64,000 nt of DNA, from contig JASEEU010000004.1 of assembly GCA_030019445.1 (NCBI GenBank), forward strand, positions 62,001 through 126,000, given 5' to 3'. A model generated the notes under the pieces. It did not search any database. It was not told the DNA's origin and saw only the letters and a list, made by a program, of their open reading frames with translations. Positions 27,628-39,118 of this stretch are shown piece by piece; position 1 is the first letter of the stretch, and every line of letters starts with the position of its first letter. Both the position numbers and the translations under genes were made by a program. This stretch comes from Anaerosomatales bacterium (GTDB lineage: Bacteria > Actinomycetota > Coriobacteriia > Anaerosomatales > Anaerosomataceae).

Positions 27628-28304
27628 GAGGGCTCCTGCCTGCCGAGAGCTGGCGGCGGGACCCGCGTGCCGGGGTGCTCGTCATCGTGGCGGGCGTGTC
27701 TGTCGCGGGGTTCGTAGCGCTCTCGATCGGACTGCTCGTCGCCCCCGCGTTCGCCGAGGTGGATGAGGCGGTCTCCTCGGCCATCAGGCTTGTGAGCGTG
27801 CCCGGCTCGTTCGCCGCGGCCCGCTTCTTCTCCTGGATCGGCGACTTCTGGCCGATGACGGTCCTCACGCTCGTGACCGCGGCCGCGCTGTGGGCCAAGG
27901 GGCGCCGCTCCGAGGCGCTCCTCGTGATCGTCACCGTGGCGCTCGGGGTGGCGCTAGGGCACGGCGTCAAGCTCGTCGTCCAGCGCGTGCGACCCGCGCT
28001 CGAACACGCGCGTATCGCCATCCCGGGCACGTACGCGTTCCCGTCGGGGCACGCGCTGGCGAGCACGCTCTACTTCGGCATCGTCGGCTTCGTCGTCGCG
28101 CTCACGGAGCGCCGTCTCAGGCACAGCGCGCTCGTCGTCGGGGCGTGCCTCGCCATCGCCGTCCTCGTCGGTCTGAGCCGCGTGTACCTCGGCGTGCACT
28201 ACCTCGGGGACGTGGTCGGCGCCTGGCTGCTCGGCGCCGCATGGCTCGCGACCATGGTGCTCGTCGGGGCCTCCTGGGGCGCTGGTCGTCCCGAGCGCCC
28301 CTAG
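27624..28304 (+). CDS. PAP2-family membrane phosphatase
   Basis: This 226-residue integral membrane protein has about six helices and all three PAP2 motifs: KLVVQRVRP, YAFPSGHALAS and SRVYLGVHYLGDVVGA. These form the phosphate-binding and nucleophile sites on the outer face of the membrane. Family members dephosphorylate undecaprenyl pyrophosphate, phosphatidic acid or phosphatidylglycerol phosphate. Translation is coupled to the pyrophosphatase by an ATGA overlap. Its stop overlaps by 4 bp the end of the convergent histidine kinase gene, leaving no room for a terminator. Undecaprenyl pyrophosphate recycling is plausible but unproven. Confidence 0.9.
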   Translation: MRGLLPAESWRRDPRAGVLVIVAGVSVAGFVALSIGLLVAPAFAEVDEAVSSAIRLVSVPGSFAAARFFSWIGDFWPMTVLTLVTAAALWAKGRRSEALLVIVTVALGVALGHGVKLVVQRVRPALEHARIAIPGTYAFPSGHALASTLYFGIVGFVVALTERRLRHSALVVGACLAIAVLVGLSRVYLGVHYLGDVVGAWLLGAAWLATMVLVGASWGAGRPERP

Positions 28305-30061
28305 CGGGCGCGCGGGAGCACGAGCGCGACCGTGGTGCCGCGCCCCTCCTCGGAAGCGATATCGACCCTGCCACCGCTCCGCTCGGCCACGTGGCGGACG
28401 AGCGCGAGCCCCAGGCCGGTTCCGCCGCTCTCGCGCGACCGGGCCCGGTCCACCCGGTAGAAGCGTTCGAACACTCGCGGGAGATCGGCCGCGGGGATGC
28501 CGATGCCGGTGTCCGAGACGCGCACGACGAGGGTGCCCTTCTCGGCCGAGACGGCGACACCCACCGAGCCCCGCTCGGTGTAGGCGATGGCGTTGGCCAG
28601 GAGGTTGTCGAGGGCTATCGCGACGTCGGTGGGGTCGGCGGCGGCGTAGACGTCCTCACCGGGGACGGCGGCGAAGTCCGCGTTGAGCGCCAGGCCCTTC
28701 TCGCCGGCTGCGCGCCGGTGCGCGGCGAGCGAGAGGTCGACTGCCTGTCGCATGTCGGTCACCGCGTCGGGAGCGGGAGCGGCTTCGAGGCGCGAGAGGT
28801 CGAGCAGGTCGAGCACGAGGTGCTGCAGGCGGGAGGACTCGTCCCGGATCTGCCGCATGAAGGTGAGCGCCTGCTCGGTGTCGCCGTCGGAGGCCGCGGC
28901 GTCGGCAGCCTCGGCCAGCAGCTGGATCGCCGAGGCCGGCGTCTTGAGCTCGTGCGACGCGTTCGCCACGAAGTCCCGGCGCACGCTGTCGAGGCGCATC
29001 CGGTCCGTCGTGTCGCTGACGACCACCAGATGCTGCCCGCGACCGTCCGCCTCGCCGAGCGGCACGACCGTGAGCCGCTGATAGCGCTGGAGCGGATCGG
29101 GACCGAGCTCACGGACGACCGTCCCGGGTCCTTCGAGCGCTTCACGGATGGCCGAGACGAGCCCGGCGGGAAGCCCGGTCTGCTCGAGCGCGGCGCGCGC
29201 GACACCTGACGGGGAGCGGGAGAGGGCGTCTGCGCCCGCGTTGGCGACGCGCACGAGGTCGCCGTCGAGCAGCATGACCGCGTCGGTGAGGCCGTCCAGC
29301 ACCGCGCGCAGGTTCTCGCGCTCGGCCTCCAGCGCGCCGATCCGCTCGCGTAGCTGCGCTCGCAGTCCTGAGAGCGCGTCGGAGAGCGGCGCGAGGGCGC
29401 CGCGCTCGTCGGGCACGTGCGCCGCGAGGTCACCGGCGGCCATGGCGCACGCCGACCGCGCCAGGCGCTCGACCGGCGCCGCAGCGGTGGAGGTCATGCG
29501 CGCCGCGAGCGCCAGCGCGAGGACGAGCGCCGCACCGAGGAGGACGAGGCCCGTGCTGCGCGCCTGTGCCGAGAGCTGACGGATGCGCTCGAGCGACTCC
29601 GCCACACGCACGGCCACGCGCTCGCCCGCCAGCTCAGCCGGCACGGCGACGTACATCTGGTCGATGCCGAGGGTGGCCGAGCGGCGCACGTCGTGGCCGA
29701 CCGCACCGCCGAGCGCGGCGCTGACCTCGGGCCGGTCAGCGTGGTTCTCCATGACCGCCGGGTCCTCGTCGCTGTCTGCGAGAACGCGTCCGTCGGCCGC
29801 GACCACGGTCATCCGCAGATCGGTCCGCGACACGATCTCCTCGACGAGCGGTCCTGTCGGGCGTCCCGTCTCGGCAAGCGCCACGGCGCCCGCTTGTGCC
29901 ACGCTCGTGAGCTGCCCCCGCTGCTGGTCGATCACCGCGTCGGTGAGCGGGCCGTAGAGGCTCCACGCCCACAGAACGGCGAAGAGCGCGACCAGCACGA
30001 CGTAGCCCGCCGCGAGGCGGAAGCGGTAGGATGTCGTCCATCGCCGCGCGGGGCGCGTCAC
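28301..30061 (-). CDS. phoR: PhoR-like sensor histidine kinase
   Basis: The 586-residue kinase has membrane helices at about 15-34 and 170-188 with an extracytoplasmic PAS-like sensor between them. HAMP (about 190-240), a PAS domain (about 250-350) and the HisKA dimerisation domain with phosphoacceptor H370 in ANASHELKTP follow. HATPase_c has the N-box LLANAIAYT, G1 DTGIGIP and G2 GGTGLGLAL. The GTG start overlaps the response-regulator stop (GTGA). Its location beside pstSCAB, divergent across a Pho-box-like array, argues for phosphate starvation signalling. No phoU is present in the window. Confidence 0.9.
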   Translation of the reverse strand: MTRPARRWTTSYRFRLAAGYVVLVALFAVLWAWSLYGPLTDAVIDQQRGQLTSVAQAGAVALAETGRPTGPLVEEIVSRTDLRMTVVAADGRVLADSDEDPAVMENHADRPEVSAALGGAVGHDVRRSATLGIDQMYVAVPAELAGERVAVRVAESLERIRQLSAQARSTGLVLLGAALVLALALAARMTSTAAAPVERLARSACAMAAGDLAAHVPDERGALAPLSDALSGLRAQLRERIGALEAERENLRAVLDGLTDAVMLLDGDLVRVANAGADALSRSPSGVARAALEQTGLPAGLVSAIREALEGPGTVVRELGPDPLQRYQRLTVVPLGEADGRGQHLVVVSDTTDRMRLDSVRRDFVANASHELKTPASAIQLLAEAADAAASDGDTEQALTFMRQIRDESSRLQHLVLDLLDLSRLEAAPAPDAVTDMRQAVDLSLAAHRRAAGEKGLALNADFAAVPGEDVYAAADPTDVAIALDNLLANAIAYTERGSVGVAVSAEKGTLVVRVSDTGIGIPAADLPRVFERFYRVDRARSRESGGTGLGLALVRHVAERSGGRVDIASEEGRGTTVALVLPRAR

Positions 30062-30771
30062 TCGGGCTCACCCGCCCCGGTACGCTCGTGCGGCTCGAAG
30101 CGGTACCCCACACCGTGGACGGTGTGCACGTAGTCATAGGCCGAGTGCTCGTCGAGCGCCTGGCGCAAGCGGCGGATGTGCACGTCGATGGTTCGGGATG
30201 ACGGCAGGAAGTCGTACCCCCACACGTCGCGGGCCAGTTGCTGGCGCGACATGAGCCGACCCTCGTGGGTGGCCATCGCAAGCAGCAGCTGGAACTCCTT
30301 CAGGCGCAGTCTCACGGGGGTCCCGGCCACGGAGAGCCGGAGCTCGCTCGGCTCGATGCGCAGGTCTCCGGTCTCGATCACGTCGTCGGTCCTGAGCACC
30401 GTGCGCTCGCGCACGCGACGCAGGTTCGCCCGCACGCGGGCGAGCAGCTCTTCCATGGAGAACGGCTTGGTGATGTAGTCGTCGGCGCCAGCGTCCAGGC
30501 CGCGGACCTTGTCGCGCTCCTGGTCGAGGGCGGTGACCATGATGATGGCGACGTCGTGGTCTTCTCGGCGGACCTGCTCGGCGAAGGAGTACCCGTCGAC
30601 GCCCGGCAGCATGAGATCGAGCAGGATGAGGTCGGGGAGCTCCGCGCGCGCACGGGCGAGCCCCTCGGCGCCGTCGGCCGCGGTGAGCGTGTCGAAGCCG
30701 GCACGCCTGAGCGCGTAGTCGACGGTCTGTCTGATGATCGGGTCGTCCTCCACGACCAGCACGGTCGCCAT
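30058..30771 (-). CDS. phoP: PhoP/PhoB-like response regulator (OmpR family)
   Basis: The 237-residue regulator has a receiver domain with acidic pocket VVEDD at 6-10, phosphoacceptor D52 in LLDLMLPG and the conserved Lys in ITKPFSM. A C-terminal winged helix (about 135-230) carries the recognition segment SSRTIDVHIRRLRQAL and ends with VHGVGYRF. The ATG at 30771 is chosen because GAGGAG lies 8 bp upstream and the domain starts right there; the longer open frame crosses the promoter region. It is co-transcribed with the kinase. It probably binds the 11-bp-spaced repeats at 30842-30880 to activate pstSCAB. Confidence 0.93.
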   Translation of the reverse strand: MATVLVVEDDPIIRQTVDYALRRAGFDTLTAADGAEGLARARAELPDLILLDLMLPGVDGYSFAEQVRREDHDVAIIMVTALDQERDKVRGLDAGADDYITKPFSMEELLARVRANLRRVRERTVLRTDDVIETGDLRIEPSELRLSVAGTPVRLRLKEFQLLLAMATHEGRLMSRQQLARDVWGYDFLPSSRTIDVHIRRLRQALDEHSAYDYVHTVHGVGYRFEPHERTGAGEPE

Positions 30772-30841
30772 GTTCGGGCTCCTCGGTTCCGGGGTCGCCG
30801 TACGGTCATCATGCCAGGGTCGACATGGAGGTAATAGCCAT

Positions 30842-30880
30842 TTAACAAAGACTTCACACAAGGGCGACAAGCATTTACAT
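30842..30880 (+). promoter_or_regulatory. Pho-box-like array, four direct repeats with 11-bp period
   Basis: TTAACA (30842), TTCACA (30853), GCGACA (30864) and TTACAT (30875) start exactly 11 bp apart. Three of the four fit the Gram-positive PhoP repeat TT(A/T/C)ACA at five or six positions. A weaker GTAATA sits one period upstream at 30831. The array lies between phoP and pstS and could serve both directions. A -10-like TACGCT (30911-30916) follows for pstS. Confidence 0.7.
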
Positions 30881-30974
30881 CCGTGCAACCACCGCCGGTC
30901 TGTCAGTACGTACGCTGGGATCGTCCGGCGGCGCTCTCGCCGGCGACCTGACTTCGACATGAGGAGAGGGATCG

Positions 30975-31856
30975 GTGAAGGTGAAGAGACTGCTTTCCAT
31001 CGGCCTGGTCGCGGCTCTGCTCGTCGGCGCGCTTGCGCTGACCGGCTGCGGCGCTGCCGAGGACGGCTCCGGCGAGGCCGGAGACGGTTCGGAGCTCTCG
31101 GGCACGATCGACATCCAGGGCTCGGACACGCTGCTGAACGTCGCGACCGCGTGGAGCGAGGGCTTCATGGACGCCAACCCGGGCGTCGACATCTCCGTGC
31201 AGGGCGGCGGCTCGGGCACGGGCATCGCGGCGCTCATCAACGGGACCGTCGACTTCGCCAATGCGTCGCGCGAGATCAAGGACGAGGAGCGCGAGGCGCT
31301 TGAGGCGCAGGGCGGCACCGTCGTGGAGCACCGGGTCGCGATCGACGGCATCGCCGTCATCGTGAACCCGGCCAACGGCGTGGCCGACCTCACGCTCGAG
31401 CAGCTCGGCCGGATCTACCGCGGCGAGATCACGAACTGGAAAGATGTCGGCGGCGCCGACGCGGAGATCGTGCTCCTGTCCCGCGATAGCTCCTCGGGCA
31501 CGTACGAGTACTTCAAGGAGGCGGTCGTGGCCGCCGATGACGAGAACGCCGAGTACGCGGCGAGCGCCAAGCTGCTGCCGTCGAACCAGGCCATCGTCGA
31601 AGAGGTCGTCGGCAACGAGGCGGCTATCGGCTACGTGGGTCTCGGCTATCTGTCGGATGACGTGCAGGTCGTGGCGATCGATGGCGTCGAAGCGTCGATC
31701 GAGACCGCGGCCGACGGCTCGTACCCCATCAGCCGCTACCTGTACATGTACAGCGACGGCGAGCCCGAGGGCGTCATGGCCGCCTACCTTGAGTGGATCC
31801 TGGGTTCGGAAGGTCAGCAGCTGGTCGCTGACGAGGGCTTCGTCCCGCTGCCATAG
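30975..31856 (+). CDS. pstS: Phosphate-binding lipoprotein PstS
   Basis: The 293-residue periplasmic-type binding protein has a lipoprotein signal ending LTGC (C25) and an acidic Gly-rich linker. The phosphate-cleft motifs are IQGSDTLLNVATAWSEGF, GGGSGTGIAALINGTVDFANASRE, LLSRDSSSGTYEYF and GYVGLGY. It captures phosphate outside the membrane for PstCAB. GTG is used as start with GAGGAGAGGG 6 bp upstream. It is the first gene of pstSCAB, under the Pho-box-like array. The length is normal. Confidence 0.96.
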   Translation: MKVKRLLSIGLVAALLVGALALTGCGAAEDGSGEAGDGSELSGTIDIQGSDTLLNVATAWSEGFMDANPGVDISVQGGGSGTGIAALINGTVDFANASREIKDEEREALEAQGGTVVEHRVAIDGIAVIVNPANGVADLTLEQLGRIYRGEITNWKDVGGADAEIVLLSRDSSSGTYEYFKEAVVAADDENAEYAASAKLLPSNQAIVEEVVGNEAAIGYVGLGYLSDDVQVVAIDGVEASIETAADGSYPISRYLYMYSDGEPEGVMAAYLEWILGSEGQQLVADEGFVPLP

Positions 31857-31858
31857 CA

Positions 31859-32788
31859 GTGACGAACACCCCGCCTCATCCGAGCGGACGGAGCCTCGGT
31901 CGTGCGACCACGCGTCGCGCGGCCGAGGCCGTCGTCCGCGGCATCATCTACGCGTGCGGCTGGATGGCGATCGTCATCCTCGCCGCTATCGCGCTCTTCC
32001 TCGTGTACAACGCCGGGCGCGCGCTCACCGAGGTCGGCCTCGGGACCATGCTGTCCGGCATTCAGTGGTACCCGACATCGGACCCTGGGAAGTTCGGCAT
32101 GCTGCCGCTCGTGCTCGGCTCGCTGCTCGTGACGGGCGTGGCGCTCGCTGTGGGCGTCCCGGTCGGCGTCGGGGCGGCCGTGTTCATCTCGGAGTTCGCC
32201 GGCCGGCGCCTCAAGGAGGTCATGAAGTCGGTCATCGAGTTCATGGCGGCGGTCCCGTCGGTGGTCTACGGCCTGATCGGCGTCGCGGTCCTCATCCCCC
32301 TGGTCAAAGACGTCTTCGACCTCTCAAGCGGGCTCACGGCGCTCGCCGGCGGCATCGTGCTCGGCGTCATGTCCGTTCCCACGATCGTCTCGATCTCCGA
32401 AGACGCGCTGCACGCCGTTCCGGATGACCTTCGGCACGGCTCGGCGGCGCTCGGCAACACGCGCTGGCAGACCACGTTCAAGGTCACGCTTCCCTCGGCC
32501 AGCTCGGGCATCTTCGCGGCGGTCATGCTGGGGCTCGGGCGCGCCATCGGCGAGACCATGGCCGTCCTCATGCTCACCGGCAACGCGGCGGTCATGCCGA
32601 CGAGCCTCTTCGACTCGGTGCGGACGATGACCGGGACGATCGCCGCCGAGATGGGCGAGGTCGTCCAGGGCGGCCTCCACTACTCGGTGCTCTTCACCGT
32701 CGGCCTCGTCCTGTTCGCGATCACGTTCGGCATCAATCTGGCCGCCGACCTGGTGCTCGAACGGCAGCGGAAGCGGTGGCGCCGATGA
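31859..32788 (+). CDS. pstC: Phosphate ABC transporter permease PstC
   Basis: This 309-residue inner-membrane permease has six predicted helices. It carries the PstC signature [21 protein letters not shown] after the first helix, [14 protein letters not shown], and the EAA-like loop [21 protein letters not shown]. The [17 protein letters not shown] block is diagnostic of phosphate permeases. The GTG start lies 2 bp after the pstS stop, so translation is probably coupled. The C-terminus overlaps the pstA ATG. Confidence 0.95.
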
Positions 32789-33651
32789 TGAGCCGCGCCA
32801 GGACGCGACAGGCCCGGGTCGCCGAGACGATCGCGCGCGGGGTCATGGGCGCTATGGCCGCCTCGGTCATAGCCGTGGCGCTCTTCGTGCTTGCCTACAT
32901 CGTCTACCAGGGTGTCGGCGCGATCGACTGGCAGTTCCTTACCGACGTGCCCCGCGACCGTGGACGCGCGGGCGGCATCTACCCGGTCATCATCGGCACC
33001 GTGTACGTGGTCACGGCGACGGCGGCGTTCACGCTTCCCGTGGGCGTGCTCGCCGGGATCTACCTGTCGGAGTACGCGCCGCGCAACCTGGCGACGCGCG
33101 CCATACGCCTCGCCATCACGAACATGGCCGGCGTCCCTTCGATCGTCTACGGCCTGTTCGGCCTTGCGGCGTTCGTGCTCGCTGCAGGCATCGGCCGCTC
33201 GGTCCTCGCGGCTGCGCTGACGCTCACCTGCATGACGCTGCCCGTGGTGATCACCGCCACCGAGGAGGCGCTGCGCCAGATACCGCAGGACATCAGGCAG
33301 GCGTCCCTGGCGCTCGGCGCTACGAAACTGCGCACCATCTACAAGGTGGTGTTGCCGGCCGCCGCTCCGGGCATCGTCACCGGGTCGATCCTCGGCCTTG
33401 CGCGTGCCGCGGGCGAGACGGCCCCCATCCTGTTCACCGGCGCGGTGTTCCAGATGCGACAGACGCCGGACTCGCCGCTCTCGCAGTTCATGGCGCTCCC
33501 CTATCACATCTACGCCCAGGTCACATCGGTTCCCGACTGGAACCGCACGCTCGTGTGGGGGACGGTGCTCGTGCTTGTGGCAGGGGTGAGCATCGTCAGC
33601 ATGGTCGCCGCGGCGTGGCGTTCGGTACAGAGGAGGAAGATCAAGTGGTAA
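32785..33651 (+). CDS. pstA: Phosphate ABC transporter permease PstA
   Basis: The 288-residue partner of PstC has six predicted membrane helices. It carries the PstA features [54 protein letters not shown] and [15 protein letters not shown]. The ATG at 32785 overlaps the pstC stop (ATGATGA); a GTG at 32776 is less likely. It encodes the ribosome-binding site of pstB within its last codons (AGGAGGAAG at 33630-33638). Confidence 0.95.
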
Positions 33652-34514
33652 GCGTGCTCAGCATCGCAGATGAGGGAACCGCGGCTATCGTCGTGCCGCG
33701 CCCGAGCGTCGATGACCGGACCGCGGGGATCGCTGAAAGCGCTCGCGGCAGCTTCACGCTGGCGGACGTCTCGGTCGCCTACGGTGACGACCTGGTGATC
33801 GAGGGGGTGGACATGGAGATCCCCTCGCGCGCCGTGACGGCGCTCATCGGGCCGTCGGGCTGCGGCAAGTCGACGCTGCTTCGCTGCCTGAACCGCATGA
33901 ACGACGAGCTCGGCACGGTGCGCGTCGGCGGTACGATCACGCTCGACGGGCAGGACATCATGCGCAGGGAGGTCGACCCTGTCGAGTTGAGGATGCGCGT
34001 CGGTCAGGTGTTCCAGCGACCGAACCCGTTCCCGATGAGCATCTACGACAACGTCGCCTTCGGTCCTCGGACGCAGGGCATCCGCCGGCGCGCCGACCTT
34101 GACGCGCTCGTCGAGGAGTCGCTTCGCGGTGCCGCGCTCTGGGACGAGGTGCGCAAGAGCCTCAAGAAGCACGCGTTCGAGCTCTCGGGCGGCCAGCAGC
34201 AACGGCTGTGCATCGCCCGGGCTCTGGCCACCAAGCCCGAGGTCGTGTTGATGGACGAGCCCGCGTCAGCGCTCGATCCCATCTCCACGCAGCAGATCGA
34301 GGATACGATCGCCGAGCTGAAGTCCTCGGTCACCATCGTCATCGTCACGCACAACATGCAGCAGGCTGCCCGGATATCCGACCGCACCGCGTTCATGCTG
34401 CGGGAGAGCCTTGAGGAGCCAGCGCACCTGATCGAGGTCGGGGAGACGAAGAAGATGTTCACGAACCCTGACGACAAGCGTACGGAGTCCTATATCACGG
34501 GGCGCTTCGGGTAG
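33645..34514 (+). CDS. pstB: Phosphate ABC transporter ATPase PstB
   Basis: The 289-residue ATPase has an N-terminal extension of about 30 residues. Walker A is GPSGCGKST, and the PstB-specific stretch [10 protein letters not shown] follows. [20 protein letters not shown], signature [16 protein letters not shown] and Walker [13 protein letters not shown] follow, with H-loop [10 protein letters not shown]. It powers phosphate import. The GTG start has AGGAGG 9 bp upstream, inside pstA, and overlaps its stop region by 7 bp. It is the last gene of the operon; the phosphate-signalling gene phoU, often next, is absent here. Confidence 0.97.
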
Positions 34515-36079: not shown

Positions 36080-37672
36080 CTACTCGCTGATGATGCGCAT
36101 GGCCTCTTCGCGCTGGACGTCCATCACGTACTCGAGTCCGGAGACCGAGGCGGCTTCCTCGGTGAGGGCGAACACGTCGCTGCGGGCGATGGACGGGATG
36201 TCGAACTTGCGGCTCCCGCTCATCAGCTGCTGCAGGCCGACCTTGAGCTTGTCGGCGAAGGTGTAGAGCGCGATGGCGCCAAGCGGCATCGAATCCACCT
36301 CGTTGCCGAACTCAGCCTTGAGCGTCTCGTAGCTGACGAAGATCTCCTCCTTGCTCGTGCCGAACTCGGAGACCGTCTTGGGCAGGTTCTCCTCTTTCAT
36401 CCAGAGCTCGATGTTCTTGCCCACGAAGCCGGGGATCATGAGCGCGCGGCCCATGCAGACGGCCTTGGTGTGCGGCGAGCCCATCGCGAGGACCTTGTAC
36501 ACGTGGTCTTCAGTGGAGAAGCCGCCGGCGATCGCGATGTCGGGGATGTAGGCGCCGTCGCGCTCGCGCAGCTTGTTCACGAGCTCGTTGGTCATGCACT
36601 GCAGGTAGAAGGTCGGGATGCCCCACTCCTCCATCATGCGCCACGGGCTCATGCCGGTGCCGCCGGGGGCGCCGTCGATCGTCAGCAGGTCGATGTGCGC
36701 GTTCGAGGCCCACTTGATGGCCATCGCGAGCTCGCGCATGCCATAGGCGCCGGTCTTGAGCGTGACGCGCTTGGCGCCGAGCCCGCGGAGTCGATCGACC
36801 TCGGCGTAGAACGACTCCTCGTCGATGAAGCCAAGCCGGCTGTGACGCTCGAACTGGCGGATGGCGCCGTCCTGGTACGCCGCCTGGATGGCCGGATCGC
36901 TCGGGTCGGGCGTGACGAGGTAGCCGCGACGCTGCAGCTCCAGCGCCCGCTCGAGGTCGTTCACCTTGATCTCGCCGCCGATGCACTTGGCGCCCTGGCC
37001 CCACTTGAGCTCGACGGTCTCCACGCCGAGCTTGTCGATCACGTACTCGGCCACACCAAGGCGGGTGTCTTCGACGTTCATCTGGACGAGCACGTCGCCA
37101 TAGCCCTGATGGTAGCGGCGGTAGTTCTCGATACGGCGCTCCATGTCAGGCGCCTTGGTGACCTTGCCGTTCTCGTCGCGCTCGAGCTGCGGGTCGATGC
37201 CGCAGACGTTCTCGCCGCACACGAGCGAGATCCCGCTGATGGCGGCGCCCACGGCGAAGTGCTCCCAGTTCTTACGGGCGATCTCCGTGGAGCCGAGCGC
37301 GCCCGTGAAGACCGGTACCTTCATCTTGACCTTGTTCTGGTAGCCGAACTCGGTCTCGGTGTTCGCGTTGGGGAAGAGCGTGTTGTCCGGTGTGCCTACC
37401 GCGCCGCCGGGCAGGCCCTCGGCTCCGAGGGCGTAGCCCATGATGTTCAGGTGCGAGTAGTCGATGGGGTAGTCCTTGTCTCCGCCCGCGGTGATCTCGC
37501 CGAAGGGACCGGGGTAGATCACCTCTCGGCCACGGAACGAAGCCTTGAAGACCTCGCAGTTGCCGCGACACCCGTCGACGCACCGGGTGCAGATGCCGGA
37601 TGCGGGAGAGACGTCGCGGGATCGGTTGGACGTTTGCGTGGCTTCGTTGGCATTGGGACGCTGCAGTGTCAT
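36080..37672 (-). CDS. Glutamate-synthase-like FMN/Fe-S protein
   Basis: The 530-residue protein matches the FMN-binding synthase domain of glutamate synthase without the amidotransferase domain. An N-terminal cluster C28-x2-C31-x3-C35-x3-C39 probably binds [4Fe-4S]. The barrel includes KWGQGAKCIGGEIKV, the FMN-binding LLTIDGAPGGTGMSPWRMM and AGGFSTEDHVYKV. Related archaeal and anaerobe proteins pair with separately encoded glutaminase and electron-transfer subunits, none of which is in the window. The ATG at 37672 has AGGGGGTAAG upstream, and TACAAT (37721-37726) is a good minus-strand -10. It is divergent from glutamine synthetase, suggesting a role in ammonium assimilation; the exact reaction is inferred. 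Confidence 0.88.
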   Translation of the reverse strand: MTLQRPNANEATQTSNRSRDVSPASGICTRCVDGCRGNCEVFKASFRGREVIYPGPFGEITAGGDKDYPIDYSHLNIMGYALGAEGLPGGAVGTPDNTLFPNANTETEFGYQNKVKMKVPVFTGALGSTEIARKNWEHFAVGAAISGISLVCGENVCGIDPQLERDENGKVTKAPDMERRIENYRRYHQGYGDVLVQMNVEDTRLGVAEYVIDKLGVETVELKWGQGAKCIGGEIKVNDLERALELQRRGYLVTPDPSDPAIQAAYQDGAIRQFERHSRLGFIDEESFYAEVDRLRGLGAKRVTLKTGAYGMRELAMAIKWASNAHIDLLTIDGAPGGTGMSPWRMMEEWGIPTFYLQCMTNELVNKLRERDGAYIPDIAIAGGFSTEDHVYKVLAMGSPHTKAVCMGRALMIPGFVGKNIELWMKEENLPKTVSEFGTSKEEIFVSYETLKAEFGNEVDSMPLGAIALYTFADKLKVGLQQLMSGSRKFDIPSIARSDVFALTEEAASVSGLEYVMDVQREEAMRIISE

Positions 37673-37720
37673 CTGGCTTACCCCCTGGGGAACGCGCACA
37701 CGGCCGGACGGATTTCGGCT

Positions 37721-37726
37721 ATTGTA
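37721..37726 (-). promoter_or_regulatory. -10 box of the glutamate-synthase-like gene
   Basis: TACAAT on the minus strand, with TTTCAG 17 bp upstream as a weak -35 (37744-37749). The GlnR-like array overlaps this promoter core. Confidence 0.5.
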
Positions 37727-37761
37727 ACCTGATAGAAATGCGACTGAAACGGCGCAGAAAA
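37724..37761 (+). promoter_or_regulatory. GlnR-like site array, four 5-mers with 11-bp period
   Basis: GTAAC (37724), GAAAT (37735), GAAAC (37746) and GAAAA (37757) start exactly 11 bp apart with 6-bp spacers. This matches the actinobacterial GlnR pattern gTnAc-n6-GaAAc as two adjacent a/b site pairs. The array lies between the divergent glutamate-synthase-like and glutamine synthetase genes, the expected place for nitrogen control. No glnR gene is in the window, so the cognate regulator is inferred. Confidence 0.6.
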
Positions 37762-37789
37762 GCAACCATCGCGGATACGGGGTACGCAC

Positions 37790-39118
37790 ATGCCTGAGCA
37801 GCTGAAACAGGACGTCATCAAGGCGATCAAGGACCAGAAGATCGAGTTCATCCATCTCTGGTTCACCGACGTGCTCGGCTTCCTGAAGAGCTTCACGATC
37901 GATGTCGAGGAGCTTGAGCTCGCGATGACCGAGGGGATGGGCTTCGACGGCAGCTCCATCCAGGGGTTCGCGCGCATCCAGGAGTCCGACATGATCGCCA
38001 TGCCGGACGCCACGACCCTGCAGATCCTGCCGTGGCGGCAGAAGGGCGCGCTGGTGGCCACGATGTTCTGCGACATCCTGCGGCCGGACGGCTCGTACTA
38101 CGAGGCCGATCCGCGCTACGTGCTGCGGCGCAACCTCGAGCGGGCCGCGGAGATGGGCTTCTCGTTCTTCATCGGCCCTGAGCTCGAGTACTACTACCTG
38201 CGTGGCGAGGCGAACCCCGAGGTGCTCGACCGCGCGACCTACTTCGACCAGACGACCCGGGACCTCGCCATCGACCTGCGCAAGGACACCGTGCGCGCGC
38301 TCAAGCGCTTCGGCATCCAGGTGGAGTACAGCCACCACGAGGTCGGCCCGAGCCAGCACGAGATCGACCTGCGCTACTGCGAGGCGCTCAAGATGGCCGA
38401 CAACGTCATGACGTACCGGCTCGTGGTCAAGGAGATCGCGCAGATGAACGACGTCTACGCGACCTTCATGCCCAAGCCGCTGTTCGGCGAGGCGGGAAGC
38501 GGCATGCACGTGCACCAGTCGCTATTCAGGGACGGCAAGAACGCGTTCTACGACGCCGATGACGAGTATCACCTCTCGGACATCGCCAAGTCCTACATCG
38601 CGGGGCTGCTCACGCACGCACGCGAGATCTGCGCGGTCACCAACCAGTGGGTCAACTCGTACAAGCGGCTGGTCTCAGGCTACGAGGCGCCGGTCTACAT
38701 CTGCTGGGCGCACCGCAACCGCTCGGCGCTCGTGCGCGTGCCCATGTACAAGCCGGGGAAGGAGAACGCCACGCGCATCGAGCTGCGCTCGCCGGATCCC
38801 GCGTGCAACCCGTATCTAGCGTTCGCCGTCATGCTCGCTGCCGGCCTGGACGGCATCGAGAAGGGCCTGACCTTGCCCGCCGACGTGACCGACGACGTGT
38901 ATGAGATGACCGCCGAGGAGCGCGCCGGGCTCGGCATCGCGCAGCTGCCCGAGGACTTGTCCGAAGCTATCTCGGCCATGGAGGAGAGCGCGCTCGTCCG
39001 TGATGCGCTCGGGGAGCAGGTCTTCCACTGGTTCGTCCGCAACAAGCGGATGGAGTGGAACGACTACCGCACGCGGGTCACGCCCTACGAGCTTGAGCAG
39101 TACCTGCCGTTGCTGTAG
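37790..39118 (+). CDS. glnA: Glutamine synthetase type I
   Basis: The 442-residue dodecameric enzyme makes glutamine from glutamate, ammonia and ATP. It has the GFDGSSIQGFARIQESDM loop, the metal-site EVGPSQHEIDLRY, the FMPKPLFGEAGSGMHVHQS block and the latch NRSALVRVP. Residues around RIELRSPDPACNPYLAFA complete the active site. The length, and the absence of the adenylylation loop with its Tyr of the longer beta form, place it in the alpha subgroup, usually controlled by feedback and transcription. The ribosome-binding site is weak (GGGG 5-9 bp upstream). The GlnR-like array lies 29-66 bp before the start. Confidence 0.97.
   Translation: MPEQLKQDVIKAIKDQKIEFIHLWFTDVLGFLKSFTIDVEELELAMTEGMGFDGSSIQGFARIQESDMIAMPDATTLQILPWRQKGALVATMFCDILRPDGSYYEADPRYVLRRNLERAAEMGFSFFIGPELEYYYLRGEANPEVLDRATYFDQTTRDLAIDLRKDTVRALKRFGIQVEYSHHEVGPSQHEIDLRYCEALKMADNVMTYRLVVKEIAQMNDVYATFMPKPLFGEAGSGMHVHQSLFRDGKNAFYDADDEYHLSDIAKSYIAGLLTHAREICAVTNQWVNSYKRLVSGYEAPVYICWAHRNRSALVRVPMYKPGKENATRIELRSPDPACNPYLAFAVMLAAGLDGIEKGLTLPADVTDDVYEMTAEERAGLGIAQLPEDLSEAISAMEESALVRDALGEQVFHWFVRNKRMEWNDYRTRVTPYELEQYLPLL

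Follow-up and report, generated by a model that had tools for sequence, protein, structure and literature searches.

A four-site array between glnA and a divergent gene in an Anaerosomatales genome is a probable operator of the orphan nitrogen regulator GlnR

Does the short spacer between glnA and a divergently transcribed glutamate-synthase-like gene in this Anaerosomatales genome carry an operator of GlnR, and which of the two genes would such an operator control? We examined the window, that is, the whole stretch of 64,000 nucleotides that was analysed, together with the rest of the genome and its relatives. The spacer occupies 37673-37789, 117 bp flanked by the start codons of the minus-strand gene (37672) and the plus-strand gene (37790). 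Direct reading confirms to the base the original prediction of four words exactly 11 bp apart in this divergent spacer, with GTAAC starting at 37724, GAAAT at 37735, GAAAC at 37746 and GAAAA at 37757. The features of the locus are the following:

36080-37672, minus strand: gene for a glutamate-synthase-like protein of 530 aa; CTRCVDGCRGNC motif at the N-terminus, Glu_synthase (PF01645) domain matched only in part
37681-37686, minus strand: Shine-Dalgarno-like AGGGGG of the minus-strand gene (direct reading)
37721-37726, minus strand: -10 element TACAAT of the minus-strand gene, ATTGTA on the plus strand (TACNAT almost unchanged across the alignment of 18 relatives)
37724-37728, plus strand: predicted GlnR site 1, the a-type word GTAAC, which shares positions with the minus-strand -10 (sequence and alignment)
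37735-37739, plus strand: predicted GlnR site 2, b-type GAAAT, GAAAC in most relatives (sequence and alignment)
37746-37750, plus strand: predicted GlnR site 3, b-type GAAAC (sequence and alignment)
37757-37761, plus strand: predicted GlnR site 4, GAAAA, GYAAY in most relatives (sequence and alignment)
37764-37769, plus strand: possible, weak -10 of glnA, AACCAT (suggested by YAAYAY at the equivalent position of relatives)
37779-37782, plus strand: Shine-Dalgarno-like GGGG of glnA (direct reading)
37790-39118, plus strand: glnA (glnA1), type I glutamine synthetase, 442 aa (TIGR00653 and genome comparison)

The spacer had been described as lying between two nitrogen-assimilation genes. For glnA1 this holds, its product matching the type I family TIGR00653 with 527.7 bits, where the cut-off is 429. 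The opposite gene has only a partial PF01645 match (residues 285-413, E 4.6e-15), and searches with its product returned no glutaminase domain match and no PDB relative by sequence. The canonical glutamate synthase FMN-domain match lies elsewhere (C4:2614-3714, E 6.8e-138), in a split gltB-type operon that also has glutaminase-like and GXGXG-type genes as judged by eye from the translations. Because the PF01645 match is partial, the glutaminase domain is missing and the canonical enzyme is encoded elsewhere, the divergent gene is best described as glutamate-synthase-like only, of uncertain function. The N-terminal motif of its product consists of four Cys. The split operon (G000:C4, L255 1680-6584) is headed by an HdrB-like iron-sulfur gene. 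Elsewhere in the window, 28301-34514 holds a phosphate set of a PhoR-like kinase, a PhoB-like regulator and pst transporter genes.

In a scan of the 64-kb window, the array had the maximum four-site score, 18/20, followed by an unrelated score of 14, and none of 60 dinucleotide-shuffled windows scored above 16. Its order is a-b-b-b. A sigma-54 promoter was sought in the spacer and not found, and a search of 37601-37800 for the MerR-type GlnR/TnrA operator TGTNAN7TNACA found none. A glutamine riboswitch before glnA is unlikely, as an Rfam search of 37400-38000 returned no RNA element.

Conservation was assessed in 27 family genomes, from which 25 glnA1 orthologues were compared, 18 of them with the same divergent gene. 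Close relatives keep the array upstream of glnA: among the 18 spacers between orthologues of both genes, 14 have a three-site score of at least 13/15 at period 11. At each of the periods 8-10 and 12-15 no more than one of the 18 does so, and shuffled spacers attain this score in 0.03%. In the aligned spacers the GTAAC, GAAAC and GAAA words are 72-100% conserved per column, and the gaps between them are poorly conserved. The minus-strand TACNAT is almost invariant beneath site 1, which bears out the earlier assignment of TACAAT as the -10 of the opposite gene; the -35 also claimed for that gene has no good consensus match, and only its -10 is clear. Of the 18 aligned spacers, 16 have site 1 on the divergent -10. 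In two relatives (L010 and L011) the entire array is displaced 5 bp from this -10 with GTAAC still in register; therefore, site 1 is not a mere by-product of the divergent -10. No fixed -10 could be established for glnA1 at the 10-bp spacing seen in the glnA2 and PII promoters.

In 7 of the 25 relatives, gdhA, recognized by eye, stands in the divergent position. Six of these have no in-register array, and one, L025, retains it; glnA can therefore do without the array. The glutamate-synthase-like gene was searched for in the six gdhA genomes G003, G004, G005, G011, G021 and G023, and no strong match was found (four had no match at all, and two had marginal ones with E near 5e-4). The glutamate-synthase-like gene and gdhA represent a gene swap at a common promoter beside glnA.

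A search for further copies of the boxes at other nitrogen genes had been suggested, and such copies were found before amtB, the PII gene, glnA2-glnR and the glutamate-synthase operon. The doublet GWAAY-n6-GAAAY has eight matches in the genome and one in the reversed control. Seven of the eight belong to glnA1 (two overlapping), glnA2-glnR, amtB (165 bp before the gene), the PII gene (92 bp before), the split glutamate-synthase operon and an amino-acid ABC operon; the eighth, by ATP synthase genes, is probably due to chance. The ABC operon is of the branched-chain amino-acid (Liv) type, and its doublet (G000:C17:138588, L256 1589-1771) lies about 180 bp upstream. The longer pattern GAAAC-n6-GAAAC-n10-TANNNT has 31 matches in the 27 family genomes and none in the reversed control. 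By position and the reading of several loci, 21 are at glnA2 and 10 at amtB or PII loci, one of the latter (G014:C32:99143) being placed by position only. At the gltB operon, a reversed GAAAC-n6-G(A/T)AAC is present in 20 of 26 genomes, about 150 bp upstream in the Anaerosomatales genome itself. Its distance to the -10 (TGCTATACT or TGCTAGAAT) takes one of two values, depending on the lineage, that differ by roughly a helical turn, a phasing that could also reflect activation there.

A GlnR operator calls up the matter of its regulator, and an OmpR-type GlnR was looked for among the ten OmpR-type C-terminal domains over the cut-off in the genome. The relevant genes are the following:

G000:C19:155102-155767: GlnR candidate gene, directly behind glnA2 (PF00486 match at C19:155114-155335)
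C19:155871-157190: glnA2, second glutamine synthetase gene, upstream of the glnR candidate

The candidate and the GlnR proteins of Mycobacterium tuberculosis and Amycolatopsis mediterranei are reciprocal best matches. Searched at full length against the genome, these two score 107 bits with the candidate and 92 and 98 with the next paralogue. Its best PDB matches are 8hih, 8hig and 8hml, which we take to be the GlnR structures reviewed for actinobacterial GlnR; PhoB is also among its PDB matches. In a quick tree against eight own paralogues, with own-genome paralogues as the sole outgroup, it joins actinomycete GlnR as a sister clade with support 100. The recognition segment GG(S/T/A)RTVDVHVRR(x)RAKLG is common to the candidate and known GlnRs, and among the regulators of this genome it is found in the candidate alone, which is also the one that known GlnRs match best. 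NCBIfam models gave only sub-cut-off matches, to other OmpR-type regulators. The glnR gene is flanked by glnA2 upstream and by methyltransferase-like and DNA polymerase I-like genes downstream, with no histidine kinase seen among these neighbors. The Ser/Thr and Lys of the receiver pocket needed for phosphorelay are missing in both Coriobacteriia and actinomycete GlnR, and most Coriobacteriia receivers have V/I/L for Ser/Thr and R/H for Lys. The receiver Asp (D50 of Streptomyces coelicolor) is kept in this genome and in 24 of 26 family members, whereas of the 78 GlnR sequences from other Coriobacteriia, beyond the family set (L136-L213), 56 have Glu at this position. By these comparisons, the protein that had been looked for is present: the genome encodes a predicted GlnR orthologue, an OmpR-type orphan with an atypical (degenerate) receiver.

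GlnR occurs in 26 of the 27 family genomes with 57-73% identity, always directly behind glnA2; the genome without the glnA2-glnR pair is 70% complete. Its named relatives include uncultured Coriobacteriia and Anaerosomatales as well as Gordonibacter, Adlercreutzia, Slackia and Raoultibacter. Where a locus extends sufficiently upstream, glnR is in most cases paired with a glnA, and boxes precede the paired glnA in a number of them, including those of Gordonibacter and Raoultibacter. In 30 other actinobacterial loci, a simple motif scan reaching 1.5 kb from glnR found no gene for a glutamine synthetase. GAAAC-n6-GAAAC precedes glnA2 in all 26 family genomes, and across 25 aligned cases TANNNT is well conserved 10 bp downstream of the boxes; the glnA2 promoter of the Anaerosomatales genome itself has no TANNNT at this spacing. 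Many glnA2 promoters (L042, L111-L135) also have TTCTC words about 11 bp apart upstream of the GAAAC boxes, possibly further degenerate or inverted sites.

Absence of a GlnR homologue, or an array unconserved beside kept flanking genes, had been named beforehand as grounds for abandoning GlnR control. Both searches were run, and they returned an orthologue and a conserved array. The array is, with high probability, an operator of GlnR, an orphan OmpR/PhoB-family nitrogen regulator encoded elsewhere in the genome; this reading is supported because the array is conserved, a GlnR orthologue was found and nitrogen genes carry the same boxes, all of which were computed here. Binding, the nitrogen signal and the direction of control are our reading of these sequences. 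Four GlnR DNA-binding domains would sit head to tail on one face of the DNA, each taking up an 11-bp helical turn and pointing at glnA. Under nitrogen limitation, GlnR would switch on glnA along with amtB, the PII genes and glnA2-glnR, whose own promoter has the same boxes and would thus provide positive feedback. Activation of glnA by the array is likely, since the four sites fit head-to-tail GlnR binding and point at glnA. In actinomycetes, the a and b sites of GlnR follow one another every 11 bp, and at a four-site promoter four head-to-tail protomers touch RNA polymerase, as described in PMC10704036.

Occupancy of site 1 over the divergent -10 would hinder RNA polymerase at the glutamate-synthase-like gene, so that the same binding plausibly represses this gene while glnA is activated. 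Binding of GlnR at the transcription start of Amycolatopsis ald represses, according to PMC4140684, and offers a precedent for the divergent gene. The strongest alternative keeps GlnR on the array and has it act on glnA only, the overlap with the divergent -10 having no regulatory role. We regard this as a substantial possibility, if short of an even one. It agrees with L010 and L011, in which the array is kept though moved off the divergent -10, and with L025, in which the array stands beside gdhA and not the glutamate-synthase-like gene. However, with site 1 on the -10 in most aligned spacers, occupancy should block polymerase, and reversed boxes occur at the canonical gltB operon as well.

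A second alternative is that another OmpR/PhoB-family regulator (MtrA- or PhoP-like) binds the boxes, either instead of GlnR or in competition with it. OmpR-family regulators commonly bind 11-bp direct repeats, and the genome has nine further OmpR-type C-terminal domains over the cut-off. In Streptomyces, MtrA and GlnR are reported to compete for nitrogen genes (PMC10704036). Against this, the boxes lie almost only at nitrogen genes, the glnA2-glnR promoter is itself boxed throughout the 26 genomes, and the recognition segment and ranking that single out the GlnR candidate are found in none of its paralogues; we therefore consider another regulator unlikely. Still less credible is that the repeats are mere core promoter elements (a -10 and degenerate -35s) of two divergent promoters, kept for polymerase. 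Site 1 does overlap the minus-strand -10, and site 4 of the relatives overlaps the possible glnA -10, but three to four GNAAY words stand in a strict 11-bp register that other periods do not show, the 5-bp displacement in L010 and L011 preserves that register, and the same words recur in different geometry at the glnA2, amtB, PII and gltB promoters. Chance repeats, for which only the shortness of five-base words speaks, are refuted by an array score unreached in shuffled windows, by conservation across genera and by the genome-wide counts, with their specificity for nitrogen genes.

Beyond this locus, we lean slightly toward a Coriobacteriia form of a GlnR that is ancestral to the phylum. It would comprise a self-activating glnA2-glnR pair, two GAAAC boxes that stand exactly 10 bp before TANNNT and substitute for a -35, and, among the Eggerthellaceae of the gut, receivers with Asp changed to Glu, the activity of which could not depend on Asp phosphorylation since the Asp itself is replaced.

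How far does this system resemble those already known? Bacillus GlnR/TnrA shares the name, the nitrogen role and a glnR beside glnA, but these MerR-family proteins of the glnRA operon are an unrelated protein family with an unrelated operator (TGTNAN7TNACA). Escherichia coli PhoB, of the same winged-helix family, binds the pho box, in which 11-bp direct repeats ahead of the -10 replace the -35. The b-b, 10 bp and TANNNT design is similar, whereas the recognition sequence and regulon differ and PhoB is phosphorylated by a kinase.

The closest likeness is to the GlnR regulon of Actinomycetes: an OmpR-type orphan regulator with a degenerate receiver, a and b sites with an 11-bp period, glnA, amtB, glnK and glutamate synthase as targets, and a four-site head-to-tail array, here predicted from sequence. 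GlnR is the nitrogen master regulator of Streptomyces and Mycobacterium; in these genera and Amycolatopsis its a and b sites are GTnAC and GAAAC separated by 6-bp gaps (PMC10704036). The a/b-site geometry of actinobacterial GlnR claimed in the original prediction stands for the 11-bp period; the consensus order a-b-a-b of Streptomyces is not seen here, where the sites are mostly b-b (glnA2, PII) or a-b-b-b (glnA1). This mismatch is not decisive for GlnR membership, because another box order, a1-b1-b2, is reported for Amycolatopsis nas in the same source. Also different here are the pairing of glnR with glnA2, the b-b, 10 bp and TANNNT arrangement common to two promoters, and the Glu in place of the receiver Asp in many Coriobacteriia.

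The GlnR system itself is already known, and its control in Coriobacteriia, a class that has received little study, appears to be undescribed: the open literature, which the search covered with few subscription papers, yielded no paper joining GlnR with Coriobacteriia or Eggerthella. Nitrogen control likewise appears undescribed in this class, which includes the common human gut genera Gordonibacter, Adlercreutzia and Slackia. The data provide a regulon with exact predicted operators and would extend the GlnR system to a deeply branching lineage of the phylum. The glnA2-glnR pairing, the make-up of the boxes and the Asp-to-Glu receivers are notable differences from known GlnR, and the last of these form a natural series for how GlnR senses nitrogen without a kinase.
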